A stretch of 45,496 bases of DNA from Candidatus Gracilibacteria bacterium CG12_big_fil_rev_8_21_14_0_65_38_15 (GCA_002771035.1 PCUR01000010.1:1-45496); one strand, 5' to 3'. Counted from the first letter of the stretch, positions 15,790 to 33,904 are shown. Numbers and translations: made by a program. The notes: generated by a model not told the origin, from the sequence alone.

Positions 15790-15909
15790 GAAATATGAAA
15801 GAACGATAATATTCGTGCGAAAACTACGAACCGTAGCGAGGCGTACGACTGTACGATGAGCGAGGAAGCGTACAGTTTGAACACGAAGATTGAAGTTATT
15901 TCATATTTC
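15790..15909. repeat. palindromic intergenic element, family A copy 1
   Basis: Outer arms GAAATATGAAA (15790-15800) and TTTCATATTTC (15899-15909) are complementary. The core has CGTAGCGAGGCGTACGACTG and ATGAGCGAGGAAGCG, shared with copies at 19581, 20285 and 32672. It ends 3 nt from the RNase J stop. Confidence 0.8.
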
Positions 15910-15912
15910 CTT

Positions 15913-17985
15913 TTAATGAACTAATACCATAACGAGGGGTTCCTTGGCAAGTTCATCGAAAACCGTATCTCCGATTTTCTTGGCGATATGCTTTTTGAGT
16001 GCTTCCACATCCTGAAACTTCGTGATATCTCCATTGAGAATAGTATCGAGGAGTTGAATGAGACGTTTTTCGAGATGAGGAAATTCCGATATTTTCGGAA
16101 TTCCAACATTGTCAAATTGATAAAGGTATTCTCCTCCTTTTTTCGCGATACTCACAACCATTGCTCCTCCTGTCGAAAGTTGGAAACGATCATGAAGCAC
16201 ATCTTCTTTCGTATATCCGATCATATTTCCATCAACCGTTACGAGCCGATGTGGAGCATACATATTGGTGAGTTTGTAGGAATCTTTGGTGAATTCGAAT
16301 ATCTGACCATTTTTTCCGATAAGAACATGGTTCTCATCATATCCGAGGTCATAAGCATTCTGTGCATTTCCATGGAGCATAAATGGGAATCCGTAAATCG
16401 GAACATATACTTCCGGACGGATAAGGGAAATCATTTTCTTAGTATCTTCTTCTTGGGCATGTCCTCCAGCATGTATCCGAGATTCCTTGTATTGACAAAT
16501 TCGAGGTCCTTGAGCCATAATAATATCAAAGAGTCCTTGAACCGAACGTTCATTTCCCGGAATAACCGAAGAACTAAATACGACCGTATCCGTCGGTTTC
16601 AAAGTTGTATCATGCGATTCTCCTGTTGCTATACGCATAAGAGCAGCATAACGTTCTCCTTGCGCTCCAGTACAGCATATTGTCACCTGATCATCAGGAA
16701 GTTTATCGGCTTCCGCCATAGTGATGAGCGTTCCTGGTTGTGGACGGGCATAACCGAGCTTGAGAGCGATGTCCATATAATTATTCATCCCACGTCCGAG
16801 AAGTACAACCTTTCGTCCAAACTTCTCTGAAGTTGCGATAATAAGAATTATACGATCAATAATCGATGAAAATGTCGCAGTAATAACTCGTGCTTTCGCC
16901 CCGACAAAAATATCATCGATAGATCCGACTACTTCCGATTCGGAAATGGAAGATCCTGATAAATGGGCATTTGTCGAATCTGACAAGAGTGCTCGTACTC
17001 CACGATCTCCAAAATTCTCCAGAAGTTCATAGTCTGTAGAAGGACGATGAGGAAGTGGTTGCTTGTCAAATTTCCAGTCCCCAGTATGAATAAATCGCCC
17101 CACCGGAGTATCAATACAGAGTCCGACACTATCGGGTATAGAGTGGTCTACTGTAAATGGAGTAACTGTGAAATTATCACTCAGTACGACCGATTTATTT
17201 CGATGATATTCTTGTATATTCGTTAGTTGATAATCAATTTCTGATTGCTTCATCTTGATAAGCTCATACGCCATCGGAGTAGCATAGAGTGGAACATTCT
17301 TTCCAAGTTGTCGCATAATATATGGAATACCTCCGATATGATCGATATGTCCATGAGTAATAAGAACCGCTACGATTTTCTTCCCATGCACATACGTGAG
17401 ATCGGGAATACTACTGGAAACACCGTGCTGATACTGATCGGGAAATTGAAGCCCCATATCAACAATAATAATTTCATTTCCATATTCAAATCCCATACAG
17501 TTGAGACCAACTTGTTCCAATCCTCCAAAAGGAATGATACGAAGAGTTTCCTTTTCAATAGGCTTCGGTCGAAGTTCTATAGGATTGTTCTTTTTTCGAA
17601 TCGCCTGTTTCGGAGTGGAAAATGGAAATGATTTTTTATTTCTTCTATTTGCTGGGAAAAGATAACTCACTCATGGAAGGATTCCTTCATTTGACTGATT
17701 TTGTCGCATAGAACCGAAGAATTTCTTTGGTGGAAGTCCTGTACCGGGATGATGCGGTTTTCTATTACCCTCAGGACGAGCAGTATGTTCTCCTGGTTTT
17801 GAATTACGATGATGTGATTTGTGTCCTTCATTCGCGTGAGGAACAGAACTTTTTCCATGTCCGGAATGCGTATTTGTTCGACGTTTATCGAAGTGGGAAA
17901 TATTACGTTCTCCTTGTGGTTTCTGAGTTCCTTCCTGTGGGATATTATTATTGTCTCCGTCTTGTGACGGTAGTGTATGTGGCAT
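15913..17985 (-). CDS. rnj: ribonuclease J with long basic N-terminal extension (690 aa)
   Basis: Metallo-beta-lactamase/beta-CASP ribonuclease for 5'-exonucleolytic and endonucleolytic RNA decay. The catalytic zinc motif is ITHGHIDHIGG; also visible are the opening IIPFGGLEQVGLN, VDMGLQFPD, the beta-CASP segment ATFSSIIDRI and HAGGHAQEED. The ATG at 17985 gives an extension of about 105 residues rich in His, Lys, Gly, Asn and Pro (HANEGHKSHHRNSKPGEH), probably disordered and RNA-binding. The extension joins the core through UGA-Gly at 17673-17671, so a standard-code caller would start at the GTG at 17670. The frame stays open to about 18120, so the start could lie further upstream. Confidence 0.92.
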
Positions 17986-18333
17986 ATGTATATTGATTAA
18001 AATAACTGAATAAAAGCATGTTCTTGCTTCTTTGTATAAAGAAAACTCCTGCAAGAGAGTAATCCTTTTTGGGTATTCGTATTTATTGTATTTTGAGGGA
18101 TATATCCTTGCTTTCGGCAACAGAAAAAAGGTCGATTCCGACGAAAAACAAAAAAATATTGAAAACTAATGAACAGCTTATAAAACCCAAGTAGGCGCTA
18201 CAAAGCTACTAATTAATGTAATTTCTCTAATATGTGGAAATGTATTTGCCTCTGCAAAGGTCATACATAACTAATTTGAGAAGTTAGTATATAGGAAAAT
18301 GACGAAAATACAAATTATTTTTGCGAAAATAGC
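17986..18333. other. intergenic region without a confident gene
   Basis: Between the RNase J start and the yigZ stop. The RNase J frame is open back to about 18120 but offers only weak starts. Short stems occur (AGTAG/CTACT near 18190-18212 and ACTAA/TTAGT near 18269-18288). It may hold the RNase J promoter and leader; I see no further gene. Confidence 0.5.
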
Positions 18334-18765
18334 TTACATCATCTCTATCCCCATCCGTGCGACATCCACGACATTTTTGTAGCGGTCGGTTTGCAAGTAT
18401 ACACCGCCGAAATGACGACTCACGACGAGAATCGCCTGTTCGATATTTTCTCTCTTGAGCTCTCGGAGAATACACTGTCCAGCGCCTGTTTCTCCATCAT
18501 CTCACTTCCCTTCTACGAGCACTCACTCCGGAGAGCGTATCCGAAAAGCATAGCTACAATGATCGGCAGTATCAAAAGGTTTTGTGGAACGAATATGTTT
18601 CATAAATGTTTTTATATCCTCTTTTCACTGCACTTGCGTGAAACCGTATCCGTACTTGGAACCTCTGTCCACAAGTACCTCGCTCGCGAGAATATTCTCA
18701 CTCTTTGGAGTAATAATATCGTCGAATCCGAGGGAAATCTGGGGTTTTATAACAGGAGAAGTCAT
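18334..18765 (-). CDS. IMPACT/YigZ (UPF0029) family protein (143 aa)
   Basis: Recognised after reading three UGA codons as Gly. Family marks are DTADHCSYAFRIRSPEG, the block EGKGDDGETGAGQCILRELK and the strand ILVVSRHFGGVYLQTDRY. Two of the recoded codons sit in the conserved loops SPEG and GKGDDGE, good independent support for UGA = Gly. ATG at 18765, TAA at 18334-18336. IMPACT-domain proteins are linked to translation control in eukaryotes, while the bacterial role is poorly known. It has only the N-terminal domain; the usual C-terminal ferredoxin-like domain of YigZ is absent. Confidence 0.9.
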
Positions 18766-18790
18766 ATGATTTTACAGAGAAAATAAGTTA

Positions 18791-18885
18791 TATTTTTTAA
18801 TATTTCTTCTCTCTTCCTGCGGGACTCGCTATAGGGATGCTCAAACATAGTCCTCGGTTGCGGTCGAAGAAATATTTAAAAAATA
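18791..18885. repeat. palindromic intergenic element, family C
   Basis: Arms TATTTTTTAATATTTCTTC (18791-18809) and GAAGAAATATTTAAAAAATA (18866-18885) pair almost fully. The core differs from family A, but its reverse complement has a similar frame: GACC, then CGAGG, a loop, GCGAG and CAGGAAG. Confidence 0.7.
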
Positions 18886-18906
18886 AGAGAAAAAATAAAG
18901 CATACA

Positions 18907-19548
18907 TTATTTTTTTCGCCGTTTCAGAAACCACCATATTCCAAATAATAGAACAAAAACTATAACGAAATACACAGCAAAACTCGTGTACTTTTCAGCC
19001 TCGACTCCGAGGTATGCGTAGAGAAGTATAAGCCACATCTCTCAGAGAATAGCTGCCAAGAAAAACGGTATGAATCTGTATTTTATAAATCCTGCCGCAT
19101 AGTAAAGTAGATCGACAGGAGTAAATGGAAACATACAGCTGAAAAAGATTATTTTCACTCCGTTTTTCTCTATCTGTTTCTTGTATTTATTAATAACTGG
19201 CAGATTTTTTTTGGAATCTTTTACATCTTCTCGGAAAATATATCCTATGGCGTACGTTTCCGCGATTCCGATTCCGACTCCAATTATACTCACAATAGCG
19301 GTCAGGAGAAAATCCTGTAATATAACTCCAGAAAGGATAATAATAACTGTAGATGGTACAAAAAAATAATTTCGAAAAGTATAAAGAATAAAGATAATTC
19401 CGAGTTTTTCGTAAATATTTACATCCAAAGAAACAAAAAAAGCTTTCAGATCAAATCCTGTCGCATACAGATATAAACTCGTAACAATCCCGACTGTAAA
19501 GAGAAGAATGATGACTGTCGTGAAAATGAGCTTACGAGTATGGGTCAT
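18907..19548 (-). CDS. VTT-domain (TVP38/DedA-like) membrane protein (213 aa)
   Basis: Integral membrane protein with about five spans: LIFTTVIILLFTVGIVTSLY, GIIFILYTFRNYFFVP, a re-entrant glycine-rich segment (IVSIIGVGIGIAETYAIGY), IIFFSCMFPFTPVDLLYYAAG and FAVYFVIVFVLLFGIWWF near the C-terminus. The order matches SNARE-associated/VTT proteins (family of DedA and TMEM64), some of which move undecaprenyl phosphate or phospholipids across the membrane. UGA-Gly at 19042-19044 joins the last 45 residues, including the final span. The transported lipid is unknown. Confidence 0.88.
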
Positions 19549-19580
19549 GAAATGGAATAGAAGTTAAGAACTTAATTTCT

Positions 19581-19700
19581 GAGATATTTCAAACACGAAG
19601 TAATTTGAATGAAAAACAAGACCCGGAGCGAGGCGTACCAATGTACAATGAGCAAGGAAGTGAAGTTTTGAATTCAAAGAACGAGCGTTTCAGATATCTC
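19581..19700. repeat. palindromic intergenic element, family A copy 2
   Basis: Arms GAGATATTTCAAAC (19581-19594) and GTTTCAGATATCTC (19687-19700). Core GACCCGGAGCGAGGCGTACC and AATGAGCAAGGAAGTG. The right arm ends 2 nt before the TAG of the methyltransferase gene. Confidence 0.8.
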
Positions 19701-19702
19701 CA

Positions 19703-20242
19703 CTATTTCTTACAAATATATATAAAAGCTGGTGGGAGATTCAGAAATGTAAATTTATAACGCACTTTCGGAAAAATATGATGAATTTCTTTCTTGTTCT
19801 GGAGAAAATACTGGAATTGAATGTATTTTCCATTTTCTTTGAGAATATGTTTTGCGCTTTCGAGTATCTTGAATACGACCAATGTTTTCATAAGTCCAAA
19901 CGGAAGAGAACTGAGAATGTAATCAATACTTCCTTTATCGAAGAATCTGATTGATTCCTCTGCTCCGAGCGGATAAACCACTATTCTATTCTCATTTTTA
20001 TACTTGGATTGAAGTTTTTTTATAAAAGAAGGGTCAATCTCGAAAATACTTATTCGGGAACCTTGGGTTATTTTTTGGAGAAGAGCATCCGTAAAGGTCC
20101 CATCCCCTGCTCAAAACTCCACGATATGGATATCGTGTGTCAAATCCATAGGACTGATCATTTTTTTGTACAAAAATCGGGAAGACGGGCTAATAGCCCC
20201 AACTGTGCGATAATTGTTAAAAACACTCTTCAAAAAAGTCAT
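19703..20242 (-). CDS. class I SAM-dependent methyltransferase, phospholipid N-methyltransferase-like (179 aa)
   Basis: Motif I is VEFGAGDGTFTDALL, with its first Gly coded by UGA; the acidic post-motif is ISIFEIDPSF and motif IV-like is YILSSLPFGL. The N-terminal GAISPSSRFLYKKMI resembles the PSSR segment of phospholipid N-methyltransferases and rRNA-dimethylase-like relatives. ATG at 20242, TAG at 19703-19705. A standard-code caller would find only the C-terminal half from a GTG at 19981. Substrate is uncertain: phosphatidylethanolamine is one candidate by family, and other small-molecule or RNA substrates remain possible. Confidence 0.85.
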
Positions 20243-20284
20243 AAAATGAAAATATAATAAATAACTCTATATTCGGATTAAACT

Positions 20285-20407
20285 GGAAATCTTCTGAAAA
20301 ATAATGAAATTTTTGTGAAAACTGCGCACCGTAGTGAGCTGTACAACTATACAGAGAACGAGGAGTGTAAAGTTTGAACATAAAGTTCGTATTTTACAAA
20401 GATTTCC
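20285..20407. repeat. palindromic intergenic element, family A copy 3
   Basis: Arms GGAAATCTTCTGAAAAATA (20285-20303) and TATTTTACAAAGATTTCC (20390-20407). The core contains CACCGTAGTGAGCTGTACAA and AGAGAACGAGGAGTG. It ends against the gltX stop. Confidence 0.75.
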
Positions 20408-20408
20408 C

Positions 20409-22055
20409 TTATCTCTTTAGTCTTTTCTCCATCGTTTCTCGTCCAAGAACTCGCATCGTGTAGCAAAGATCGGGAGTTTTAGCAGAAGCGCAGAGAAGAA
20501 GACGGAGCATCATGGCGATATCCCCGACCCGTCCGATATACTCTCCCGTTTTCCATTCGTCTCCGGTTCGGGCGAACTTATGAGTATGGGCAATATTCTT
20601 CAGTTGTTCGAACCAAACGTCCCGATCCATGGTCGAATCGTACGCCTTCAAATAATCTTCTATGAAAGCTTTCTGGACTTCAGGAGTAACACACTCCGGA
20701 AGTGATGGAGCTGTATTTTTCAAAGATTCGAAAGTCTCTTCGTAGAAAAATTGGAGTTGTCCTCGAAGATCGGAAAATTTAGTAAATCGGCGTGGATCTT
20801 TTTCGGTGTGACGTTCGATATCGAGTGCTTTGTATGTCATCTCAGGATATTGTTCCATAAGACGCGCGAGTTCTTTATCGTATTTCTGAGCCCATTCGAG
20901 TCCTTGTGATTGAAGTTCCTCAGTTGAAAGTCTCGTCAAAACCGTATTGGCGATAGAATCCAGTTTCACGATATCGAAAAGCGCTCCAGAAAGCGGAAGT
21001 CGATCAATTACCAATGGATATGTCTTGTAGTTCACAGTCGGATTTTCGAGTCTCCAAGCCTCGTACTTGGAATCCATGATTCCGAGCATGTAATCGACAA
21101 GAGCTTCGACAGTATATCCTTGTTCGAAAAAGAATTCCACATTCGCTTCAGGATCTTTTCGTTTGCTGAGTTTGCGTTTTCCTCCTCCGTCGGCTTTCAG
21201 AAGCGGAGCGATATGGATATACTTTGGGGCTTGGAATCCGAGAGCTTCAGTGAGTTGGATATGGAGCGCAAAAGAAGGAATCCACTCCTCCGCACGAATA
21301 ACGTGAGTTGTTCGCATGAGATGATCATCTACCACATGAGCGAGATGATAGGTCGGAATCCCTGTTTGTTTCAGGAGAACAGTATCCATGAAATTGTCCT
21401 GCATTTCAATATCTCCACGGATTTCGTCATGGAGTTTCGCGCGTTTGTTTGGATTTCCATGAGCACGAAATCGAAGAACATATTTTTTCCCGGCAGAAAG
21501 AGCTTCTGTTACTTCCTCAAGAGTCGCAACTCTCCAAGGAGAATAAGAACCATAGATTCCGAGTGGTTGTTTTGCGAGAGTTTGTTCTTCACGAATCGCA
21601 ACGGATTCTGACTCGGAAAGAAAACATGGATATGCCATCCCTCGAGCCACGAGCTCTTTGACGTACGTCTGGTAGATAGAACCTCGTTTCGATTGAGTGT
21701 ATGGTCCATACGAACCTACATCCGCACCATCCTTGCCAATCGGACCCTCATCGATGGTGATGCCGAATTTCGCAAGCCCTTCGGTGATCATGTAAACCCC
21801 ATTTTCAATTTCACGCTTATCATCCGTATCTTCAACTCGGAGATAGAATATTCCGCTGTTCAAATGAGCGATACGTTCCGAAAGAAGCGAAGTATACACT
21901 CCCCCGATATGCAGAAACCCTGTTGGACTCGGTCCGAAACGGGTTACTGTCGAAACACTTCGTGCCGGATAGAGAAGCTCGAGAGATTCTGACGTATGGG
22001 CAATACTCGGAAAAAGGAGATTCGCGAGAGCAAGATGAGGATGAGAGTGAGACAT
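20409..22055 (-). CDS. gltX: glutamyl-tRNA synthetase (548 aa)
   Basis: Class I synthetase charging tRNA with glutamate. It has the HIGH-type motif FGPSPTGFLHIGG near residue 40, LRVEDTDDKRE, HVVDDHLMRTTHVIRAEEW and the KMSKS-type loop KRKLSKRKD. The C-terminal 180 residues are the anticodon-binding domain. The ATG at 22055 (MSHSHPHLALANLLF) is chosen because an open stretch further upstream looks like leader sequence and covers the likely promoter. No UGA codon at all. In bacteria lacking GlnRS such an enzyme may also make Glu-tRNA-Gln, but nothing here decides that. Confidence 0.96.
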   Translation of the reverse strand: MSHSHPHLALANLLFPSIAHTSESLELLYPARSVSTVTRFGPSPTGFLHIGGVYTSLLSERIAHLNSGIFYLRVEDTDDKREIENGVYMITEGLAKFGITIDEGPIGKDGADVGSYGPYTQSKRGSIYQTYVKELVARGMAYPCFLSESESVAIREEQTLAKQPLGIYGSYSPWRVATLEEVTEALSAGKKYVLRFRAHGNPNKRAKLHDEIRGDIEMQDNFMDTVLLKQTGIPTYHLAHVVDDHLMRTTHVIRAEEWIPSFALHIQLTEALGFQAPKYIHIAPLLKADGGGKRKLSKRKDPEANVEFFFEQGYTVEALVDYMLGIMDSKYEAWRLENPTVNYKTYPLVIDRLPLSGALFDIVKLDSIANTVLTRLSTEELQSQGLEWAQKYDKELARLMEQYPEMTYKALDIERHTEKDPRRFTKFSDLRGQLQFFYEETFESLKNTAPSLPECVTPEVQKAFIEDYLKAYDSTMDRDVWFEQLKNIAHTHKFARTGDEWKTGEYIGRVGDIAMMLRLLLCASAKTPDLCYTMRVLGRETMEKRLKR

Positions 22056-22100
22056 AGCGGATATATTCTTTATGTGAAAGGGGAAATATAAATTGGCGGT

Positions 22101-22128
22101 AGTATAGGTATTCAGGAGAAAAAAGCAA
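22101..22128 (-). promoter_or_regulatory. promoter of gltX
   Basis: On the minus strand TTGCTT (22128-22123), a 16-nt spacer and TATACT (22106-22101), 46 nt before the ATG at 22055. Confidence 0.6.
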
Positions 22129-22143
22129 CATAAAGTAACGAGC

Positions 22144-22170
22144 TTGACTTTTATAGAAAAACCATATGAT
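22144..22170 (+). promoter_or_regulatory. candidate promoter of the structured transcript
   Basis: TTGACT (22144-22149), a 15-nt spacer and TATGAT (22165-22170). The stretch TTGACTTTTATA is repeated exactly in the promoter at 22581, which supports it; the spacer is short. Confidence 0.4.
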
Positions 22171-22174
22171 ATCG

Positions 22175-22562
22175 ACACTTGTTTCAAAATAATTCAAGGA
22201 AAGATAATTGTTTTCAACAATCAGGAGAAAAAAATGAAACGCATTTTGATAATATCTGGTTTCGTACTTATAAGGAATCGATCGATTCCAGAAACCCCAT
22301 TTCTCATAGGGTTGGTAATACAAGAGAATCAGAAAACGTATCCGAGGCGATCGTTTTACAACCAGACATCATGGACTCCACAAATACGGGCGCACCATCA
22401 AATCCCGACAAGGACGTTCATTCCTCGTGGGGTCTGCCGGGATCTCCATGGCCGTCTGGAAAATACAAGATCTTCTCGCTCCCGTCTCACAAAACGAAAC
22501 GGGAGTCGATAAGGCTTAATTTTTATCCCCCAAGAGCTTTAGTTCTTTGGGGGGTTATTTTT
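22175..22562 (+). ncRNA. candidate structured non-coding RNA of about 390 nt
   Basis: The gap between gltX and the next gene holds a promoter-like site (22144), several stems and a strong terminator at 22527. Stems include the perfect palindrome GGAATCGATCGATTCC near 22274, CTCCCGT/ACGGGAG around 22480-22506 and ACCC/GGGT near 22297. No frame gives a convincing protein: the best starts at 22234 after an AGGAG site (MKRILIISGFVLI, 92 codons) but soon becomes Arg/Ser/Thr-rich with atypical codons and no UGA. I could not match the core signatures of RNase P RNA, tmRNA, SRP RNA or 6S RNA. A short protein gene remains an alternative. Confidence 0.4.
22527..22560 (+). terminator. intrinsic terminator
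   Basis: CCCCCAAGA (22527-22535) pairs with TCTTTGGGGG (22544-22553), followed by TTATTTTTT. Confidence 0.85.
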
Positions 22563-22580
22563 TCCGACATATCTACTTGT

Positions 22581-22610
22581 TTGACTTTTATAAAAAAAGT
22601 ATATTATACT
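22581..22610 (+). promoter_or_regulatory. promoter of the 67-aa gene
   Basis: TTGACT (22581-22586), an 18-nt spacer and TATACT (22605-22610), 55 nt before the ATG at 22665. Confidence 0.65.
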
Positions 22611-22664
22611 TCTAATTATCAAAAGTAAATTCATTATTTTACACTCTTAATTACATAAATACCT

Positions 22665-22868
22665 ATGTTATTAAAAAATAAGGAGGATGTCCGTAAGGAA
22701 GAAGAGAAAAATGAAAAAAGAAGGAGAGTGAATCTCGAGCTTCGTCTTATTGAACAAAAACAAAAAGACTTTGATCTTGCATTTGGAGAAGAAAGAAAAG
22801 CCGATTGTTTTCAAATACTCAATATCATGGATGATGCACTCACTCGTATCAATAATATATTGAGATAA
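22665..22868 (+). CDS. small charged helical protein (67 aa)
   Basis: ATG at 22665, TAA at 22866-22868, no UGA. A highly basic/acidic N-terminal half (KEDVRKEEEKNEKRRRV), then LELRLIEQKQKDFDLAF and a hydrophobic end (ILNIMDDALTRINNIL). Probably one long helix or helical hairpin. It lies between its own promoter (22581) and a similar-sized gene 65 nt downstream. Function unknown. Confidence 0.65.
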   Translation: MLLKNKEDVRKEEEKNEKRRRVNLELRLIEQKQKDFDLAFGEERKADCFQILNIMDDALTRINNILR

Positions 22869-22933
22869 TTCATCATATACTTTCGTAAAATACGAAATAC
22901 CCTTTCGATTTTTATTTTTCATAAATTATTATT

Positions 22934-23134
22934 ATGATATCCGAACAAGCGAATGCTTATATAAATTGACAACTCTGAAAATTCAGAGTTGAAAAAGAAA
23001 ATCTTTCTCGTGCAATTATAAACGATAACAATACTGAAGCTCTGAGAATAAGTCACACAATGAGCCAACTACTTATCCATGTCAGATCCTCTATAAGAGA
23101 AAATATGATAGATAATAGGAATCCTCGCAGATAA
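22934..23134 (+). CDS. small hypothetical protein (66 aa), seen only with UGA = Gly
   Basis: ATG at 22934 to TAA at 23132-23134, with two UGA-Gly early on (YINGQLGKFRVE). The rest is helical and polar (NLSRAIINDNNTEALRI, MSQLLIHVRSSIRENMI). It resembles its upstream neighbour in size and in ending with a short Asp/Asn-Ile-Arg helix, and may be a distant paralogue or partner. It ends 19 nt before the ZIP transporter gene, so co-transcription is likely. Confidence 0.65.
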
Positions 23135-23153
23135 TATATATAAACTCTTTTTT

Positions 23154-23894
23154 ATGCATTTATTCTTCCCTCTTGTTATCCTTTTTTTTATCTCCGCAAC
23201 AGGGATGATTCTCTATGCTTTCAAAAAAATAAATCAAACAGTATTAAATCTCTTTATAGCGCTCGGGGCAGGTTCTATGTTAGCGGTTTCGCTTGTGCAT
23301 ATCCTCGCGGAGTCACTCGAATCGAGTGACCTTGCTATCTATGCATTTATGGGAGGCTTTCTTGTTATCTATCTGATTGAGGAACTTCTTACCAATCATA
23401 AGCATGATCATAAGCATGAGGATCATACTCATGAAGATCCACATGAACATTACAACCATGTGGCGTTCGTAGCAGGAATTGCAATCTTTATCCATACTCT
23501 TTTCGATGGGCTTGGAATCCGTGCTGGATTCGGAATATCTACAACTCTTGGATACAGTGTACTGTTTTGAGTAGCTATCCATCAGATTCCTGTCTCTTTG
23601 TCACTCGCAGCTCTTTTTCGGGAATCGAAATTCCAGAAAAAAACCCAGATTTGAGCTCTTGTATTTTTTGCTCTCGCAGCTCCGATTGGATTTTATATCT
23701 CCGATATGATTCTCGCTCATACGAACGAAACAATGACTGCTCTTACCATTGCATTCGCTGGAGGTTCCCTATTATATGTTTCTGCTTCTGACCTCCTTCC
23801 GGTCGTACATAGCCAATCAAAGTACAAATATCTGACCATATTCTGTTTCGTCATCGGAGTCATAGGAATGAGTGCGGTGAAATTATGGGAGTAG
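23154..23894 (+). CDS. ZIP-family metal transporter (246 aa)
   Basis: Polytopic protein with about eight spans. A His-rich cytoplasmic loop lies between spans 3 and 4 (HKHDHKHEDHTHEDPHEHYNH, about residues 82-102), the usual metal-sensing loop. The metal-binding helices are recognisable: FIHTLFDGLGIRAGFG (span 4) and VAIHQIPVSLSLAAL (span 5), with the HxxxD and HxxPxxxxL patterns of ZIP/GufA proteins. Two UGA-Gly, one at the start of span 5 (23568-23570). Expected to move zinc or another divalent metal into the cytoplasm. TAG stop. Confidence 0.93.
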
Positions 23895-23900
23895 CAAAAC

Positions 23901-23929
23901 AAAATCCCCTGCTTATCAGGGGATTTTTT
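23901..23929 (+). terminator. intrinsic terminator after the ZIP gene
   Basis: AATCCCCT pairs with AGGGGATT around GCTTATC, followed by a T-run. It separates the plus-strand ZIP gene from the minus-strand tRNA. Confidence 0.85.
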
Positions 23930-23938
23930 AGTTTTCAA

Positions 23939-24026
23939 TGGCGGAGAGAGGGAGATTCGAACTCCCGGTGGGTTGCCCCACACACCCTTTCCAAGGGTGC
24001 GCACTAGGCCACTATGCGACCTCTCC
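23939..24026 (-). tRNA. tRNA-Ser (anticodon GGA)
   Basis: 88 nt with encoded CCA. The acceptor GGAGAGG pairs with TCTCTCC (one G-T), followed by discriminator G and CCA. The anticodon stem CACCC/GGGTG encloses the loop TTGGAAA. A long class II variable arm (TGTGGGGCAACCCAC region) and the T-arm GGGAG-TTCGAAT-CTCCC are clear. It reads UCC and UCU. Downstream of its 5' end lies palindromic element B1. Confidence 0.95.
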
Positions 24027-24049
24027 ATTATGTATTATTTTTGAGTGAA

Positions 24050-24159
24050 AATGTTTTCTGATTTTATTTCGGAATCAAGCGAGGTCGTGTTCGAATCCCA
24101 GTCCGCCTAGGCGGACGGTTAAGTTCCGCAGCTTGTGGAGAAAAAAATCAGAAAACATT
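24050..24159. repeat. palindromic element, family B copy 1, with tRNA T-arm-like core
   Basis: Arms AATGTTTTCTGATTTT (24050-24065) and AAAATCAGAAAACATT (24144-24159) are exact complements. The core reads GAGGTCGTGTTCGAATCCCA and then the perfect palindrome GTCCGCCTAGGCGGAC (24101-24116). The same core lies inverted at 34621-34670, differing at one position over about 40. Confidence 0.85.
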
Positions 24160-24250
24160 ATCGATTTACATACTTTACAAAAATCATTCACCAAAATCAA
24201 GTAGCGACAGTATATATTTTTCGGGAGAAATGCAAGTTTTTATGAAAATT

Positions 24251-24835: not shown

Positions 24836-24867
24836 ATTTTCTATAAAAACAGATAAATTCGTTTCTG

Positions 24868-24895: not shown

Positions 24896-24908
24896 AGAAA
24901 TGTAAAAA

Positions 24909-24936: not shown

Positions 24937-24973
24937 CGGAAAACCATAAGCAATATATCCTAATATCTGCCCT

Positions 24974-25255: not shown

Positions 25256-25278
25256 TTTTCCTTCTTTTCCAATAAACT

Positions 25279-25653
25279 ATGGACAACTACAAATTTACCT
25301 CATTTCTCGCACAAACAAGTCTCAGTACTGGAGAAAAATATAATTTGACTATTATTTTCAATACTCTCACGGACGACCGAAAAATCGAGATTATCGAGAA
25401 TTGGAAAAAATATTATGACAAAATTCTCTCCGTACACACTTCTGCAGAAGAGGAAAAACAAGAAAATATACGAATTACTTTCGCGAAAATCAATAGTCTT
25501 ATAGACGAGGCTCTTTTGCGCGATGAGGCAAGAAAAAGAGAAGAAACAAAACAAGAAAAACAGAAAGAGGAGGAAAGAAAAATGACCGAAACATACGATA
25601 TGCAACGTCGTCTGGAACAACTTCGAAATATCGGACGTCCTCCTGGAGGATAA
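25279..25653 (+). CDS. small protein with charged coiled-coil tail (124 aa)
   Basis: ATG at 25279, 23 nt after the previous gene. Residues 1-60 look globular (YKFTSFLAQTSLSTGEKYNL, IIENWKKYYDKILSV). Residues 75-110 are a Glu/Lys-rich helix (RKREETKQEKQKEEERK), likely a single long helix or coiled coil. It ends RNIGRPPGG. No UGA, no family recognised. Confidence 0.65.
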   Translation: MDNYKFTSFLAQTSLSTGEKYNLTIIFNTLTDDRKIEIIENWKKYYDKILSVHTSAEEEKQENIRITFAKINSLIDEALLRDEARKREETKQEKQKEEERKMTETYDMQRRLEQLRNIGRPPGG

Positions 25654-25680
25654 TCCATTTTATATAAAAATAATATTTTT

Positions 25681-25908
25681 ATGACTCACTACGAAAATAT
25701 ACCAAATTGGCAACTTTTTAAGATTAAATTCGAGCCGACTTCCGAATTTATCGAACAGATAGAATCTCGTTTCAATGCACTTAAAAACATTTCCGAATAT
25801 GAAGTCATAGCGAAACATATCAATGTTCAGATTGGACTCTTGAATCTCCGAGATCGTGAAATGAGCCAAGAAGTTATGAAAGAATTTGGAGATATTTTTA
25901 AAAATTAA
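25681..25908 (+). CDS. small hypothetical protein (75 aa)
   Basis: ATG at 25681, TAA at 25906-25908. Compact alpha/beta-looking sequence (WQLFKIKFEPTSEFIEQIE, YEVIAKHINVQIGLLNLRD). The stop is 8 nt before the flavoprotein ATG, suggesting tight co-transcription. Function unknown. Confidence 0.65.
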   Translation: MTHYENIPNWQLFKIKFEPTSEFIEQIESRFNALKNISEYEVIAKHINVQIGLLNLRDREMSQEVMKEFGDIFKN

Positions 25909-25916
25909 ATTTCATT

Positions 25917-27026
25917 ATGTACGACATAGTTATTATCGGTTGAGGTGCTGCCGGACTTTTCTGCTCGCTTTCCGCTCCGAAAAACCTCCGAAAAATCATC
26001 CTCGAAAAGAACAGTTCCCTTGGAAAAAAAGTCATACTCTCCTGATGAGAGCGTTGTAATGTGACCAATATCGATATAACGCCCGAGGACGATTACTTTG
26101 GAGAAAATATCAAAGCGATTCATAGTCTCCTCTCGAAATTTTCGAACTATGATATGATCGATTGGGTGGAGAAACATGGAATTACAACTTGCGTAGAGGA
26201 TCGTGGACGAGTCATACTCGAAAGCGGTAAATCCAAGGATCTTCTCGATCTTCTCGTACGCGAATCGACCAAAAATGGTACAGAAATTCGAACGAGATTT
26301 GATATCACAAAGATAGAAAAAACGAATGATATTTTCCGTGTTCATGGAAATGACGGAAGTATCGTGGAAGGAAAGAATCTTATCATAGCAACGGGCGGGA
26401 AAAGCTTCTCACAAGTCGGAACCGACGGATTTGGATATATGATTGCCAAACAATTTGGTATCGAGATAGTTGATCCCTATCGCGGACTCTGTGGAATGGT
26501 GACAAAGGAGGATTTATCAGGACTTTCTGGAAGCACTCTCGACCTCACTCTTTCACTTTTTGACGGAAAAAAACTCCTCTACGATGAAAAAGGTTCTTTC
26601 CTCTTCACTCACACGGGACTTTCGGGACCTATTGTTTTCAATGCTGTCATCGCAGTTGGTGAACACCTTCGAAAACTCGGCATCAAAGAGTCACAACAAA
26701 AAAGTTATTTTAATGAAAACATCACTATAAAACTCACTTTCAATGAGGAAAGTATGACCAAGAAAGTAAAAAGTTTTTTTGAGCTTGATGAAACGAAAAA
26801 CGAAGTAATATTTCATTTGTCCGATCTTAAATCTTGGGAAGAAGCTAAAGTTACCGGTGGTGGAATAAAGTTATCGGAACTCACTAATGTTTTTGAATCC
26901 AAGAAAATCGAGCATCTCTATTTTATCGGAGAAGTACTCGACTTGACGGGAAAAACCGGAGGATTCAATCTCCAACAGGCATGGGCAACTGGATATGTTT
27001 GCGGAAAAGGATTTGGAGAAAATTAA
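25917..27026 (+). CDS. HI0933/BaiN-type FAD-dependent flavoprotein (369 aa)
   Basis: The Rossmann start YDIVIIGGGAAGLFCSL uses UGA at 25941-25943 for the second Gly of the dinucleotide-binding motif. The family signature KKVILSGGERCNVTN uses two adjacent UGA codons (26043-26048) for GG. Further marks are NLIIATGGKSFSQVGTDG (second FAD contact), GLSGPIVFN and the C-terminal VTGGGIKLSEL and GGFNLQQAWATG. Members are oxidoreductases of poorly defined substrate, with BaiN proposed to act on bile-acid double bonds. Slightly short for the family (about 390-420). Its stop overlaps that of the convergent EAL gene by 4 nt. Confidence 0.95.
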
Positions 27027-27904
27027 AAATCAGAACCACAATCAAAGTAATATCATTGAAAAGAAACGTTTTCAACATGGGAATGAGCGAGTAAATTCCG
27101 GAAAAACAGAAACATTCCTTCGTCTTCTATCTTCTCGACCACTATATCGATTCCGGGGTGTTTCGCTTTAATATTTTCGATATTTTTAAGAAAATCTGAT
27201 ACAGTCCATTCAGTATTGGTCTTATTATAAAGACCTTTCATATATTCCCCATCGATTTTCACTGTATCAATTTCTACTAGATTCTCGATACAGAGCGCGT
27301 TATGATTTCCGAGCGGATGAAAATCATCTACTGCGATTTTATATCCTCTTTTTCGAAGCTCGAAAAGGGTTTTATTAAAACTATCATAATCGTCTATTTT
27401 TTCCGTTTCCAGTACTTCAAATATGATTTGCGAAGGATTTATAAGATAAAAATCATAAAGTCTATCGACTTCCTGGATAAAAGACGCGTTGAGCGTCGAC
27501 GGATTTACGTTAATAGAACAAGGAATGGAGGGTTTTCTATAAAAAATCTGCTCAAATGCTTTATCGACAACAAGTTGATCAAAAATATTATCAAGTCCGT
27601 TCGCTTCTATAATTGGACAAAAAGTAGAAGGAAATAATGTTTTCCCATCAACACTTTCCAGTCGAGCAAGAAGTTCTGTTTTTTTCAGATTTCCTGCTTC
27701 ATCAAAAATCCCTTGCGAGATAAAATGAAACATATTTTTTTTCAGACATTCATACACTTCTTTTTTTGTATCAGTATGCAAAGTATGTGCTATGAAATCT
27801 TTTGTAACCGAAATAATTTTCATGAAATTATTCTCTACTTCATTTGAAATTCACGGTATTGTATCTCGTACATCATCCGCAACAAGAGTTCATATATTTG
27901 TCAT
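27023..27904 (-). CDS. EAL-domain protein, probable c-di-GMP phosphodiesterase (293 aa)
   Basis: The EAL signature is present as EVLE in IIFEVLETEK. Other active-site blocks are INVNPSTL, VDDFHPLG, VKIDGEYMKG, VVEKIEDEG and the terminal QGYYFD, whose Gly is UGA (27055-27053). The key acidic, Asn, Lys and Gln positions look intact, so hydrolysis of c-di-GMP is plausible. Reading UGA as Gly moves the start to the ATG at 27904 (two more UGA in the first 20 residues). It also extends the C-terminus ten residues past UGA to TAA at 27023. No membrane span or sensor domain, and no GGDEF partner in the window. Confidence 0.9.
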
Positions 27905-28059
27905 ATATTTCTATATTAAATAATAATATTAATGTACTATACAATTAAGTATTAAAATTTAATTAAATTAAAAAAGTTTTTTAAAAACACAGTCGAAAAC
28001 TTTCTTGCATTTTCAGTAAAAACCCATAATCTCCGTATATATATTCAAGTCCCAAAAAA

Positions 28060-29073
28060 ATGCTTTCTTTCCCTTTTTTATCACTTCTCGACTGGTCGAA
28101 AATACATGGTCGCCACTCGCTTCCTTGGAGAACATATTTTCATCTTTCAGAGAGAGATCTCGGCTATCATGTCTGGCTCTCGGAAATACTACTCCAACAA
28201 ACACAGGTGGAACGAGTTATCGGATATTATAACAATATTTTGAAGGTTTTTCCGACAATCGAAGCGCTCGCAAATACTTCTTATGAGGAATTCTTTCCAT
28301 ACTATCAATGACTCGGATACTATTCTCGAGCCCGCAATATGCTCAAAACCGCGAAAATAATCACCGAGGAATACCAGTGAATATTTCCGAATAATACCGA
28401 TGAACTTAAAAAACTTCCTGGAGTTGGACCGTATACTGCAGCTGCCATTCGGGCTTTTGTGTATAATGAAAAAGTTCTCAGTTTCGATACGAATCTCGAG
28501 AAAATATTTTCGAGATTCTATCATGGAAGCCGTTTCCAAAAGCTTTCCAAAGAAGAAAAAACTCTCATCGAAAAAGATTTCCAAGGCACAGGAATCTCTG
28601 GACGTGAGATAAATGCCGCTTTTATGGATTTCGGATCGCTTGTTTCGTTCAATATTAAACCATCGGATGAGAGCGGATGGGAAAAAATCTCAAAAAATTA
28701 TCCATTGGACGATTGTTTCTGGCTCAAAACACAATGAGTGCTCGAAGTACAAGAAAAAAAGAAAAAAAGAGTATTCCCCACTAAAGATGCGAGTATTAAA
28801 GTAGTGCTCCACGAAAATCATCGAATCTATTATTCCTCTGTAGAATGAGACTATCAACCATTTATTCTCCCACCAACCGAGGACAATGTCCGTCAAAGAG
28901 TACAAGAATATTTTCGTGATTCCTATAATCTAGAAGTTTCTGTTCGTCCCATTCATGACAAGTATTTCGAAAATGACCGCCCATTTATCATCTGCAACGC
29001 CCAAGTACAAAAAGGACTCCCATCATTTCGGAAATACCAAAAAGAAAATGGATTTTTCGTGAAAATTCTATAA
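28060..29073 (+). CDS. mutY: A/G-specific adenine glycosylase MutY lacking the iron-sulfur cysteines (337 aa)
   Basis: Removes adenine mispaired with 8-oxoguanine. The catalytic Glu lies in LSEILLQQTQVERVIGYY, the helix-hairpin-helix is LKKLPGVGPYTAAAIRAF and the catalytic Asp is in VLSFDTNLEKIFSRFY. The glycosylase part ends INAAFMDFGSLVSFNIKP, where normal MutY has the four-cysteine 4Fe-4S loop. Here that loop has no Cys pattern (only one Cys, in LDDCFW). A Nudix-like C-terminal region (IKVVLHENHRIYYSS) follows. Four UGA-Gly codons, the first at 28309-28311. Clusterless MutY enzymes are known in some other bacteria. Confidence 0.93.
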
Positions 29074-29098
29074 ACTCAATTAGAGAAGATTCCGAATC

Positions 29099-29161
29099 AA
29101 GTTCGGGATGACAGTATTAGATGTTCAAGATGACGGTATTTAGGAGCTCGAAATGACAAAG
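29099..29161 (+). repeat. degenerate tandem repeat, three units of about 22 nt
   Basis: Units begin AGTTCGGGATGACAGTATT, TGTTCAAGATGACGGTATT and AGCTCGAAATGACAAAGT. It lies between mutY and the DedA gene. Confidence 0.6.
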
Positions 29162-29196
29162 TACTTTATTATTCAAATCACCAAATCTCTATAATT

Positions 29197-29985
29197 ATGC
29201 AACACAAACTCATTCGTAAGATTTTCCATATTCTTTTTCAGATTCTCAATATTATCTTTGTCGGTATTATATTGACACTCACGGCGATTGCTATATTCAA
29301 GCCTTCACTCATCGAGCAGTTTATAGGGTGGATGGAGAAACAAATTCATCTTCTTGGAAATTGGAATTATTTTATTGCCTTTACAAGTAGCATTATTGAA
29401 TCGTTTCCCGTTATTGGAGTACTCGTTCCTGGTCAACAGATTATGCTCATAGTCGGAGGATTTTTCGGGAAACTCTGATTCTTGCAACTCGGATATATGA
29501 TTATGTTCGCCATTATCGGAGCACTTATAGGAAATGCTATCGGATACTTTCTCGGGAAGTGGTATGGAACAAGCTTTCTCGAACGATACGGAGATTGGTT
29601 CGGACTTGGAAGAACGGAGCTTAAGTATTTGAAAAAACAGATCGAGAAAAATGGAGCATGGTTTATTATTTTTGGAAAATTCCATAACTTCACTCGTGCT
29701 TTTATCCCGTTTATCGCAGGATCTATGGGTATGCAGACAGGGAAATTCTGGATGTATAATATTATAGGATCAATTCTCTGGGCAACAACTATCATAACTC
29801 TTGGAGTAACTTTTGTTACATATTATAAAACGATTCTTTCGTATTTCTCTTATTTCCTTGGGGGAATAATGGTGAGTGCCATCGTGTATGTATATTTTTT
29901 CAAACGAGAAGCCTTTATGACCTACATAAAGGAAAAAGAAAAAGAAATAGAAGACAAAGCAAGAGAAAAAATGGAGAGAAAATAA
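29197..29985 (+). CDS. DedA-family membrane protein (262 aa)
   Basis: Membrane protein with the DedA/SNARE-associated fold: an N-terminal span (ILNIIFVGIILTLTAIAIF), re-entrant segment 1 with IESFPVIGVLVPGQQ, then YMIMFAIIGALIGNAIGYFLG. The motif GKFHNFTRAFIPFIAGSMG corresponds to the conserved F/H-x-R-x(3)-P-x(3)-G loop. A last span (YFLGGIMVSAIVYVYFF) precedes a charged tail. UGA-Gly at 29476-29478 joins the two halves. DedA proteins recycle undecaprenyl phosphate or move phospholipids; the next gene uses such a lipid carrier, which fits. Confidence 0.93.
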
Positions 29986-29989
29986 AAAA

Positions 29990-30017
29990 GTGACAGAATG
30001 AAACTTTTCTCTATACT
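29990..30017 (+). promoter_or_regulatory. promoter of the glycosyltransferase gene
   Basis: GTGACA (29990-29995), a 16-nt spacer and TATACT (30012-30017), 31 nt before the ATG at 30048 and just past the dedA stop. Confidence 0.5.
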
Positions 30018-30047
30018 CTCCGGGTATAAAAATAATCACCAAAAGCT

Positions 30048-31223
30048 ATGAATTTTCTCTCAACCCTCCCCTTCTTTACACAATTCAGTCTTTTTTTAGT
30101 AATCTCCCTCGTCTCTTCATTCATTATTTTCCATGTTGGAAAATATCTTTTCCTGCATTTCGGACTCCTTGATAATCCGGCACCGTATGGGCATAAAAGA
30201 AAGCCGGTACCATTCGGTATCGGGAGTGTTCTTTATCTCAATTTTTTGTTTCTTTCGGCATTTCTCTATCCGATTTTGAGCGATATAAACCAGAGCCGAC
30301 TTTTTATTATCCTCGTACTTTGATGAATTGTTACGCTCGTGAGTTTCGTGGATGATCTCGACACGATTTATAAGTTTGATCGAGTAAGCAAAAGTGATAT
30401 CAAAAAAACAGCGGAAGAACTCGGGAATATGCGACGTTCTACTCCATTTTTTGTTCCTGCAAAAGTACGACTTATGATGCAAATCGGAGTCGGAGCAATC
30501 ATCGGAATCACGAGCATTAAAATCGGATATATTTCAAATATATTTGGGTGAGTTCTCTATCTCGACCAGTATTATGTTATTCTCGGATCATTTCAGATTT
30601 ATCTCATCCCTCTCATCTTCACTATCATATGGTATGTGGTGGTATTTAATTCTGTTAATTGGTCAGATGGAGTTCCGGGCCTCACTTCTGGTCTTTCGTT
30701 CGTCACGCTTCTCGTGATGACCGTTCTTACTATCAAACTCTATCTCATAGACCCTTCTTCTCCGTCGCAGGGCAATTCTGTTTTCGTCCTCTTTTGTCTC
30801 GCGATATTTATCCCCTCGGTTCTTATCGGTTGGCTCTACAATATTCGCCCGCAGGTTCTCCTCGGAGAGTCGGGCACGATGTTTACGGCATTTATGATCG
30901 CGACACTCGCCATCATAGCCGGAGGAAAAATCGCTACGGTTGCCACGGTTCTCGGAGTCTATCTCATCGATGCTTTCTATGTTATTCTTATGCGACTCTA
31001 TAATAAGAAAAATCCACTTGCTGGAGATCGTATCCATCATCTCCATTATCGGCTTCTGAATATGGGGTTGAGTGAGAATTTCGTCCGATATTTCGTCTAC
31101 TCTCTCGCGTTTCTCTTTGGTATGGCGGCAATCTTCCTCGATAAGGTCGGAAAGGTTATACTTTTCTTCGTTCTTATCATAATAGTTGTGTTTATAACAA
31201 AGATTCTCTCATTGAAAAAATAA
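30048..31223 (+). CDS. MraY/WecA-family phospho-sugar transferase (391 aa)
   Basis: Polytopic membrane enzyme (about 10-11 spans) that moves a sugar-1-phosphate from a UDP-sugar to undecaprenyl phosphate. Visible motifs: KRKPVPFGIGSV (cytoplasmic loop 1), SFVDDLDTIYKF (DDxD metal/catalytic loop), FNSVNWSDGVPGLTSG (N-x-x-N-x-x-D-G-x-x-G) and AGDRIHHLHYRLLNMG (the HHH loop of WecA-type enzymes). Three UGA-Gly, two of them adjacent at about 30321-30326 before the DDxD helix. The loop favours a WecA/TagO-type surface-polysaccharide role over MraY, but the sugar is unknown. Confidence 0.92.
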
Positions 31224-31261
31224 TATTACACGATAAAAATAAAAAAAGTCTGTTTTTTTTA

Positions 31262-31290
31262 TTTACTTTTTAAAAAACATTGTATATACT
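31262..31290 (+). promoter_or_regulatory. promoter of the pilin-like gene
   Basis: TTTACT (31262-31267), a 17-nt spacer and TATACT (31285-31290), 35 nt before the ATG. Confidence 0.6.
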
Positions 31291-31325
31291 ATCTTTTGTT
31301 ACTTTATTAACTTTCTTTTTTTCCT

Positions 31326-31925
31326 ATGTTTACACTCAAGAACAGTACTCGTGGTTTTACACTTATAGAACTCCTCGTAGTTATTACTATTATCGGTATC
31401 CTTGCAACTGGTGCCACTACGGTATATACCAGTCAGATTCAGAAAGCTCGTGATACAACGAGAATTAGTGATATTAAAGCATTACAATCAGGTATTGAAC
31501 AAGCTTACCAAGATGCTTCAGTATATCCTGCTATGGGAGTAGCATTCTCTGGAGTAGCAGTTTATACTCCGAAATTTCCTAAGGATCCTAAAACTGGACA
31601 ATCTACAGCTAATACATCTCTCGATTATGCTTATATGGCTTGACCAGATGCGAATGCTATAGTTGGACAACAATATGAGCTCTCTACTGGTTTTGAAAAT
31701 GTCGGAACCACGACCAGTAAATGAGGTACAGATGGAGGAGGTGATGTATATAGATTTGAGGCCTGAATTAATACCGTTTCCAATGGGACAGGTCTTAAAG
31801 GAAAACAAGTTCTTACATCTTGGGCTTCTACTCCAACAAGTGCCCCAGCCAACTGATGTGTTGTTCCTCCTGCTGTTACTGTTGGTGCCTGTACAGTTGC
31901 TAATAGCGTAATGGTTATACGTTAA
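31326..31925 (+). CDS. type IV pilin-like protein (199 aa)
   Basis: Class III prepilin signal: short basic leader, then G-FTLIELLVVITIIGIL with the cleavage site before F and the conserved Glu at +5. The hydrophobic N-terminal helix (residues 10-32) is followed by a helical spine (QKARDTTRISDIKALQSGI) and a Gly/Ser/Thr-rich globular head ending CVVPPAVTVGACTV with a possible disulfide loop. Four UGA-Gly codons, all in the head; under the standard code only the first 105 residues would be seen. Strong promoter and own terminator, so probably a single, well-expressed gene. Role by family: pilus subunit or pseudopilin for attachment or DNA uptake. Confidence 0.92.
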
Positions 31926-31942
31926 TTATGTTAATATATATT

Positions 31943-31979
31943 TAAATAAAATCCCACCTCCAAGTGGGATTTTATTTTT
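31943..31979 (+). terminator. intrinsic terminator after the pilin gene
   Basis: AAAATCCCAC pairs with GTGGGATTTT around CTCCAA, extended by AAAT/ATTT and followed by a T-run. Confidence 0.9.
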
Positions 31980-32038
31980 GCCAAAAAGAGAGTTCCGATT
32001 ATACTACCTCCATATAATTTTTAATTTGATTCTTTTTC

Positions 32039-32626
32039 ATGTTTTCTCATCTCTCCGGGACTATCCTTACCATCGAAGATGGAAAAGTCGATCTTATCAT
32101 AACAGGAACCGGTCTCGGATTCGAGATTCTCGTCCCTGTCCGAACACTCGCGAATGTCACAGTTGGAGAAGCAAAAAGCCTCTATATCCACCACTATATC
32201 ACCGATGTTTCCGAAGTACTCTTCGGGTTCGAAACCCGCGAAGAAAAAGCTCTGTTCCGCAAGCTTCTGAAAGTCAGCGGAGTCGGAGGAAAAACCGCAC
32301 TCGCTATGCTTTCGCTCGGAACCCATCTCCTCATAAAAGCCATCGACGAAGGTGATGAAAAATTCCTCTCCTCCCTCCCAGGCATCGGGAAGAAAATGGC
32401 ACTCAAAATCATCGTCGAACTCAAGCACAAAGTCAGTATCGATGATATTACCGAACAGACTCCGCAAACCCCACTCCGCAAACCCGGAAATGTCGAGATT
32501 ACCGATTCACTCCTCTCCATGGGATACGACCGTAAAACAGTCGACCGAATTGTCGATTCTATCCCAGATACACTCATAGGACTTCAGGACAGGATGGTAT
32601 ATTGTATTAAAATGCTCGCGAAATAA
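32039..32626 (+). CDS. ruvA: Holliday junction helicase subunit RuvA (195 aa)
   Basis: Binds four-way DNA junctions and carries the RuvB motor. An OB-fold N-terminal domain (residues 1-64, IEDGKVDLIITGTGLGFEI) is followed by two helix-hairpin-helix motifs (KVSGVGGKTALAML and LPGIGKKMALKI) and domain III (SLLSMGYDRKTVDRIV), which contacts RuvB. Length is normal. No UGA codon. ruvB and ruvC are not in the window. Family A element copy 4 begins 46 nt downstream. Confidence 0.97.
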   Translation: MFSHLSGTILTIEDGKVDLIITGTGLGFEILVPVRTLANVTVGEAKSLYIHHYITDVSEVLFGFETREEKALFRKLLKVSGVGGKTALAMLSLGTHLLIKAIDEGDEKFLSSLPGIGKKMALKIIVELKHKVSIDDITEQTPQTPLRKPGNVEITDSLLSMGYDRKTVDRIVDSIPDTLIGLQDRMVYCIKMLAK

Positions 32627-32650
32627 TTTTAATTTTTAAATTTAGTTTTT

Positions 32651-33904
32651 TTGCTAAAAAATAAATTTTTTAGAGACTCTCAAAAACGAAGTAATTCGAG
32701 TGCAAATCGAGACCCGGAGTGAACCGTACGACTGTACGGAGAACGAGGAAGCAGAGATTTAAACTCGAAGAACGAGTTTTTCAGAGCCTCTCCGCACTTT
32801 TCTCTTTTTACCGCTACAGGAGCATATAACCTCGGGGATGAACTCATTCTCCTTCAGGAATATACCTACCTCAAAAATCGCTATCCTCAGGCGACTTTTT
32901 CAGTTTTCACCTATGATGAGGAAAGTTCTCTCCTTCCCGAGGATTCATGTATAAAATACATCTCATACTTTCCGCACTATTTTAAAAAAAGACCTTTACA
33001 AAATATCTGATATTTCCTACAAACCGTACTCACAATTCGAAAATCAGACATGATTATCATTGGTGGTGGTGGGCTTTTGTACGACAATGAGGAAGGACAG
33101 GATTTCAATAAACTCCTGCGTCAATGGAAGTTCCGGGTATGACTCGCGAAATTTTTTCATAAACCCATAATCTACTGGTCGCTCGGAATCCATCTGAAAG
33201 AGGAAAATAAGAGGAAAATACTCCCTCTTTTTACTGGTGAAAATATATTTATTTCCTTGCGAGATGCTGAAAGTAAAAAAACTCTCGAATCTATAGGGAT
33301 AAAAAGTATTCTTCTGCCTGATCCTGTTCTTTCTTATGACCCGGAAATCCCGAAGCTTCTCATAAAACAGCGACCAAAAATCGGACTCTCATTCCGTTCC
33401 GGTTTCCTTCAAGATGAACTCGAAAATATCGAGAAAATTATCGCTTTTCTGATGGCTCACGGGTATGAACCAATTCTACTCAATCATTCATTCCATAAAG
33501 ATAATCTCTCTACAAATGATAATATTTTTCTCTCGAATCTTGAGGAAAAATACCAACTTCGGTCCACTAAAAATATAAAGGAAACTCTCGAAATTTACAA
33601 AGAGCTCGAATTCGTTGTCGGAATGCGGCTCCATAGTCTTATCCTTTCGCTCGTTCATGCGATTCCATTTTTTGCTATAAGTTACGGGAAGAAAACAGAT
33701 GAATTCGTACGAAGTCTGAATTATGAATACTCTCTTGCTGCGCGGATGTTCGATATAGAGATTTTCAAAAAGCAATTTATGAAACTCGAGGAAGAGAAAA
33801 ACGAGCAGAAATTTGCTTTAAGCGCGAAAAATGATATACTGAAACGCGAAATATATTTTACCACTAATAATTTTTTCAATGGACTGGAAAGCATTAAAAG
33901 ATAA
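32651..33904 (+). CDS. polysaccharide pyruvyl transferase-like protein, start uncertain (up to 417 aa)
   Basis: The conserved core begins at about 32795: HFSLFTATGAYNLGDELIL resembles the N-terminal G-x-x-N-x-GDE of CsaB/WcaK pyruvyl transferases. It continues with SDMIIIGGGGLLYD, IIYWSLGIH, IFISLRDAESKKTLE, KIGLSFRSG and FVVGMRLHSLILSLVHAIPF, all typical of the family, which adds ketal-pyruvate to surface sugars. Two UGA-Gly in the core. No ATG, GTG or TTG lies between the core and palindromic element A4. The nearest possible starts are CTG 32732 (inside the element) and TTG 32651 (used here), with an open frame through the element. The natural start may have been displaced by the element. 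Confidence 0.75.
32672..32792. repeat. palindromic intergenic element, family A copy 4
   Basis: Arms GAGACTCTCAAAAACGAAG at the left and ACGAGTTTTTCAGAGCCTCTC at the right (ends 32792) fold back, followed inward by ATTCGAG pairing with CTCGAA. The core is GACCCGGAGTGAACCGTACG and GGAGAACGAGGAAGCAG. It runs directly into the 5' end of the pyruvyl transferase-like gene. Confidence 0.8.

Follow-up and report, generated by a model that had tools for sequence, protein, structure and literature searches.

The stretch of Candidatus Gracilibacteria DNA considered here raises the question of what kind of sequence keeps its core from copy to copy while its outer arms change and still pair with each other. 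In the window, meaning the whole stretch of 45,496 nucleotides that was analysed, there are exactly four palindromes with a common core and locus-specific, complementary outer arms, as the initial annotation had claimed. They are 120-123 bp long and are the only copies that a covariance model detects there (model starts 15783, 19574, 20279 and 32665), and the core motif is matched 3 times where 0.20 matches are expected. E1 (15790..15909, +) belongs to subtype 3, GAAAGAACGATAAT, with the 5' arm GAAATATGAAA and the 3' arm TTTCATATTTC, the end of which is separated by 3 nt from the stop codon (TTA, 15913-15915) of an antisense gene at 15913-18120. E2 (19581..19700, +; subtype 2; arms GAGATATTTC / GATATCTC) lies 2 nt off the stop (CTA, 19703-19705) of the antisense gene 19703-20242, and E3 (20285..20407, +; subtype 1; arms GGAAATCTT / AAGATTTCC) 1 nt off the stop (TTA, 20409-20411) of the antisense gene 20409-22307. 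E4 (32672..32791, +; subtype 2; arms AGAGACTCT / AGAGCCTCT) spans the start of a polysaccharide pyruvyl transferase gene, where the ATG of the relatives reads CCG and the start is lost. The claim that three copies abut a stop codon and the fourth a gene start therefore holds, with E1-E3 ending 0-3 nt from the stop of an antisense gene and E4 lying across the pyruvyl transferase start. An open frame (code 25; 32651..33904, +) includes E4 and continues into the polysaccharide pyruvyl transferase (PF04230, E 4.8e-42), and E4 would be translated only if a start codon upstream of or within it is used. Directly before E1, a perfect 22-bp inverted repeat with T-runs at 15720-15764 of the window resembles a bidirectional terminator.

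The family is far larger than these four copies. A genome-wide covariance-model search, which the initial annotation had named as a check, finds 69 copies in the own genome (1.01 Mb in 74 contigs, with genes whose frames are open if TGA stands for glycine, table 25), so that the family has at least 69 members there; a simple core pattern alone gives 40 matches in the whole genome and its reversed control none. Three subtypes can be distinguished. A different 5' end, TATAAGGTCCGGTGACATGTGAA, replaces the usual 5' arm in three copies of the own genome (L023, L037 and C35:9986), maybe because a second repeat has been joined, and in two of these the match starts further out, at CTCGATAAATCTTT. No longer, autonomous version in which the core is split was seen in the own genome, where all 42 matches to the left half of the core lie inside known copies. 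All six genus-mates carry the element, with 10 to at least 53 copies, while within the family its occurrence is patchy and in the order it is seldom present, and weaker, related cores occur elsewhere in the phylum. A strict pattern run over 84,980 species matched 49 stretches, and among these matches the element is confined to CPR-type genomes: the hosts are Gracilibacteria, Saccharibacteria, Berkelbacteria, Uhrbacteria, Yanofskybacteria and Patescibacteria, the remainder being listed as "uncultured bacterium Loclat_bin-20132" and "bacterium Bin_17_1".

Nearly all copies form one long rod, which consists of the outer arm P1, the helices P2 (AAAAATG/CATTTT type), P3 and P4, and two short helices between purine-rich internal loops (ACCGGAGYGAA / AGARYGAGGAA), closed by the tip CCGTAC..GTACGG. 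The sequence of the tip is conserved and the helices covary. Among 36 copies, double changes are seen at 27 of the 40 pairs; with 106 distinct copies, drawn from related genomes as well as the own one, 92.3% of the cells pair and both sides have changed at 34/40 pairs, giving 722 double-change cells as opposed to 219 after shuffling and 77-122 after sliding of the partner. G.T outnumbers A.C by 144 to 44 in the core helices and by 63 to 43 in the outer arm. As G.T pairs well and A.C badly, the folded strand would be the one carrying GAGCGAGGAAG, which points to a single folded strand, either as RNA or as single-stranded DNA. The earlier suggestion that the fold is selected is thus supported by the strong covariation and by the excess of G.T over A.C in the core helices. 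Rfam covariance models reach the gathering score in the window for tRNAs only, and none matches the element in five further sources at E<=0.1, so that a known Rfam RNA family was rejected.

Copies whose cores are 92-98% identical differ in their outer arms, which remain complementary within each copy. This is illustrated by two copies less than 1 kb apart on one contig (C9:11316 and C9:10539), whose cores are 98% identical while their arms are AATATCTCTC / CAGAGATATT and GATAGTACTC / CAGTGCTAT, respectively. Near-identical cores with different arms imply that the arms belong to the site and are not inherited with the core, and they also rule out stepwise compensatory drift as the source of the arms. 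A Saccharibacteria genome shows the same picture with four copies whose cores are near-identical and whose arms, 16-20 bp long, are all different. Between orthologous copies the arms are near-identical, and one such pair (L208/L216) shows a compensated change from C-G to T-A. The site orthologous to E1 is filled in the own genome as well as in the related genomes G003, G005 and G006, with three subtypes in all and differing arms, and the outermost GAA/TTC is common to the different subtypes. The arms may originate from a template switch that copies one flank at insertion, from a choice of GAA..TTC sites, or from both. A rather unlikely alternative, which concerns the origin of the arms only, is that they are the halves of palindromes or terminator stems which were already present before insertion. 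Single sites fit this idea, which the initial annotation had raised as insertion into existing terminator stems: the E3 site reads GGAAAATTCC in G003, the RimO site in G002 has GAAATTTC, the PheT site in G005 is GAGAATTTTTC, and the GAA/TTC shared by different subtypes at E1 can be read in the same way. As a rule, however, it is unsupported, since the comparison of empty sites in relatives, run as had been suggested, places the empty junctions at a mean palindrome percentile of 0.47 relative to their surroundings (35 comparisons at 14 sites, with automatically set arm limits that miss by some bases in a few places). Empty sites are thus no more palindromic than the background, and pre-existing stems are not a general source of arms; the long and different arms in Saccharibacteria, one of them in a copy inside ileS, also speak against it. 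In a distant Patescibacteria genome (G107), a tRNA-like gene is immediately preceded by a copy (L233) whose arms, GAACTGGCGCCTAG, are 14 bp long.

Comparison of related genomes shows that the element moves, as orthologous empty sites exist for E2-E4 and for copies inside genes. The E2 site is empty in G006 and G002 and the E3 site in G006 and in G003, the latter reading GGAAAATTCCC there, in each case with intact flanking genes; at the E4 site, which is empty in G006, G003 and G001, both genes abut and are intact. At the ksgA site the own genome and G006 share the same copy, G005 has another subtype and G003 none. While the genes of genus-mates are about 70-85% identical to those of the own genome, element copies at unrelated places reach up to 95%. 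The reading that we prefer, with a probability of roughly 0.8, is that the palindromes are a mobile but non-autonomous element, about 120 bp in size, which folds as a single strand, has arms set per site, and is found at stop codons or in frame in genes. One observation that counts against a mobile element is that at orthologous sites the element is 93-97% identical and the flanks only 76-90% (the exception being one pair in the DinG-like gene, 79%), since a purely neutral insert would not outconserve its flanks; the slower change at most orthologous sites could reflect constraint, gene conversion or recent reinsertion. Because the relatives are only about 80% identical, the exact sequences before insertion are beyond the reach of empty-site comparisons. 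At the site in the beta-lactamase-fold gene, the "empty" G006 locus (L191) has ATCAGGAATTTCTTGAAAAT, which is similar to the first 20 nt of the element in the own genome and is possibly the scar of a lost copy. Extra AT-rich or foreign DNA of 27-45 nt, missing from the relatives, lies 5' of the element in MurB (L033), MiaB (L008) and RadA (L040) and at E2 and E4, and that in MiaB is similar to another palindromic repeat of G004. The strict pattern matched nothing in viral_contigs, where viral carriers of the element were sought.

The placement of the non-coding copies follows a sharp rule. This was examined on 81 copies, 55 from the own genome and 26 from relatives, with an antisense gene being counted if it was at least 100 aa long. 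Such a gene ends near the 3' side of 57 of the 81 copies, and in 52 of these 57 its stop codon falls within a 7-nt window at the 3' arm, while the distances to sense stop codons on the 5' side are broadly spread. The stop codon at E2 is also present at the empty site in G006 and is therefore the gene's own. Such an oriented and sharp placement is not obviously expected from random insertion followed by selection, and this again counts against a mobile element. It would suit a functional 3'-UTR element instead, i.e. a hairpin after the stop codon which ends transcription or protects the mRNA and of which the copies inside genes are by-products. The location of 52/81 non-coding copies exactly at a stop codon, the covariation and the slower change relative to the flanks would all be explained in this way. 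The element would, however, be antisense in the adjoining mRNA, whereas the excess of G.T over A.C favours the other strand; no consistent T-run was seen by eye beside either arm on either strand; congeners without E2-E4 keep their genes intact; and at least 13 copies lie within genes. A 3'-UTR function as the primary explanation is therefore improbable. For a mobile element, the same rule would mean that copies between genes survive where their 3' end comes within 0-3 nt of an antisense gene's stop codon.

Known systems with a folded strand offer another comparison. The attC sites of integrons are folded single strands with variable arms and a fixed orientation beside a stop codon, and in them the outer boxes are conserved and the centre is variable. 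The folded strand, the variable arm sequence and the fixed, stop-adjacent orientation are also found in the CPR element, but here the tip and core are conserved and the outer pairs vary, which is the opposite of attC; moreover, there are no cassette arrays and the element is gained or lost without a gene. REP/RAYT and ERIC-type palindromes are likewise present in many copies, mostly downstream of genes, and form hairpins as RNA or single-stranded DNA (PMC3733652, PMC2229807). REPs are 20-40 bp long (PMC3733652) and have GTAG or CGTC tags and, in part, RAYT partners (PMC3733652, PMC2229807), in contrast to the 120 bp of the CPR element, to which Y1_Tnp is unlinked. The domain (PF01797) has 14 matches in G002 and one in the own genome and is absent from G001 and G003-G006. 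A Y1/IS200 transposase was rejected as the mover, being unlinked to copy number and absent from G005 with its at least 53 copies. Although a single folded strand, dispersed hairpins and a fixed orientation at the stop as in attC cassettes would fit a REP, an IS200/IS605-type element moved by a Y1 transposase or an attC-like site, the lack of Y1_Tnp in G005 and most of the copy-rich genomes, the variable arms in place of a variable tip and the small size of REPs make this very unlikely. The single Y1-type transposase-like protein of the own genome (G000:C58:24177-24512, L229) is encoded about 500 nt from the element inside murB. No transposase or donor for the element was found.

Thirteen copies lie in frame within conserved genes, with the frame open in 13/13 and Pfam domains on both sides. 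The genes concerned encode PheT, a DinG-like helicase, an RMKL methyltransferase, MurB, MurG (near the start), two MiaB/RimO-type methylthiotransferases, RadA, a beta-lactamase-fold protein, KsgA, a VWA/BatA protein, TilS and Dus. Twelve of these copies are in sense orientation, while that in RadA is antisense but still in frame. Protein alignments with congeners show clean insertions of about 35-50 aa with an alignable remainder, although for BatA, MiaB and MurG the site holds other inserts or a shifted copy in some congeners. The typical peptide reads TQKGSNSSANxxPEGxVRxYGEGGSGDLxSKNEFF. None of the 13 copies contains a TAA or TAG, and all have at least one in-frame TGA, which makes up 40/509 codons of the element as opposed to 33/5776 elsewhere; they are therefore readable only because TGA encodes glycine in this lineage. 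Accordingly, the sense frame is open in 57/68 copies with TGA as glycine and in 18/68 under the standard code. In KsgA, the insert is present in 3 of 29 aligned orthologs and absent from the other 26, and the structure model gives a pLDDT below 50 for the element peptide (residues 121-149) and above 90 for the rest of the fold. The inserted element would be an extra loop of 40-50 aa, which is probably disordered, and the conservation of the frame suggests that copies inside genes are translated without splicing. A small intron or bypassed insert, removed from the RNA or skipped by ribosomes, is extremely unlikely despite the strong RNA-like fold and the sense orientation in 12/13 genes, as an intron would not need the open frame free of TAA and TAG that is kept in 13/13 copies, one in-frame copy is antisense, and no clear case of a gene interrupted out of frame was found in a non-exhaustive survey of the other copies of the own genome.

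Copies within genes also occur beyond the genus. Loclat_bin-20132 has in-frame copies in RsmB/F-type and UvrD-type proteins, and in the same genome a UvrD-type helicase has, close to its start, two in-frame cores in tandem with a spacing of 87 nt (L266). In Saccharibacteria, read with the standard code, one antisense copy is in frame within ileS, and another antisense copy is found where a T4SS coupling-protein gene ends. Palindromic repeats unrelated to the element (NPLLKGEG..LLGEGSGVR type and CCCCTCTCC type) are in frame where the own genome has the element, namely in KsgA and MiaB of G004 (L289, L187) and in BatA of G002, G003 and G005 (L199-L201). The positions in KsgA, MiaB and BatA are insertion-tolerant loops common to different repeats. 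Y-T-A as a bare sequence target was rejected, as it adjoins the 3' arm in only about 5 of the 13 gene-internal copies, as judged by eye.

In kind, the CPR element is closest to the Rickettsia palindromic elements (RPE; Ogata 2000 and 2002). According to two later accounts, RPE are mobile palindromes of about 100-150 bp which occur in non-coding DNA and also in frame in conserved genes that are unrelated to each other, to whose products they add a peptide, and their target duplication is listed as unknown (PMC2229807, PMC10969869). RPE and their Wolbachia equivalents resemble the CPR element in size, copy number, mobility and in-frame habit, whereas the latter differs in its CPR hosts, a sense frame that needs TGA as glycine, arms set per site, a 3' end fixed at stops and antisense in-frame copies in a standard-code relative. 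No relation in sequence was apparent from a search of NCBIfam, in which five element peptides matched no RPE or other family at E up to 1 (the library may not model every RPE family). An archaeal palindromic element is likewise readable as protein, its host being archaeal. In the open library that was searched for palindromic repeats in Gracilibacteria, Absconditabacteria, CPR and Saccharibacteria, no report of such elements was found.

For a mobile element of this kind, the following course of events can be proposed. One strand folds into the long rod and would be recognised by an enzyme as a folded single strand; copies insert at new places, with the complementary outermost arm probably being made or chosen at insertion. 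Copies inside genes would survive by keeping the frame and being translated as a 40-50 aa loop, the sense frame being open only because the lineage reads TGA as glycine. A wider and more tentative possibility is that this is a CPR-wide element with a new insertion mode, in which a folded strand is placed in fixed orientation exactly at stops, or in frame in genes, and host sequence is copied into complementary arms; the change of TGA from stop to glycine would then have opened the sense frame in this lineage. Any model of transposition must account both for the placement at stop codons and for complementary arms that are specific to each site. Until now, palindromic selfish elements that are translated were a curiosity of Rickettsia and Wolbachia, and elements of this kind are here found in essential, highly conserved proteins of reduced CPR genomes, where such inserts can mislead gene models and trees. 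Since sense copies depend on the recoded TGA to be tolerated, the change in the genetic code can be linked to the load of mobile DNA.
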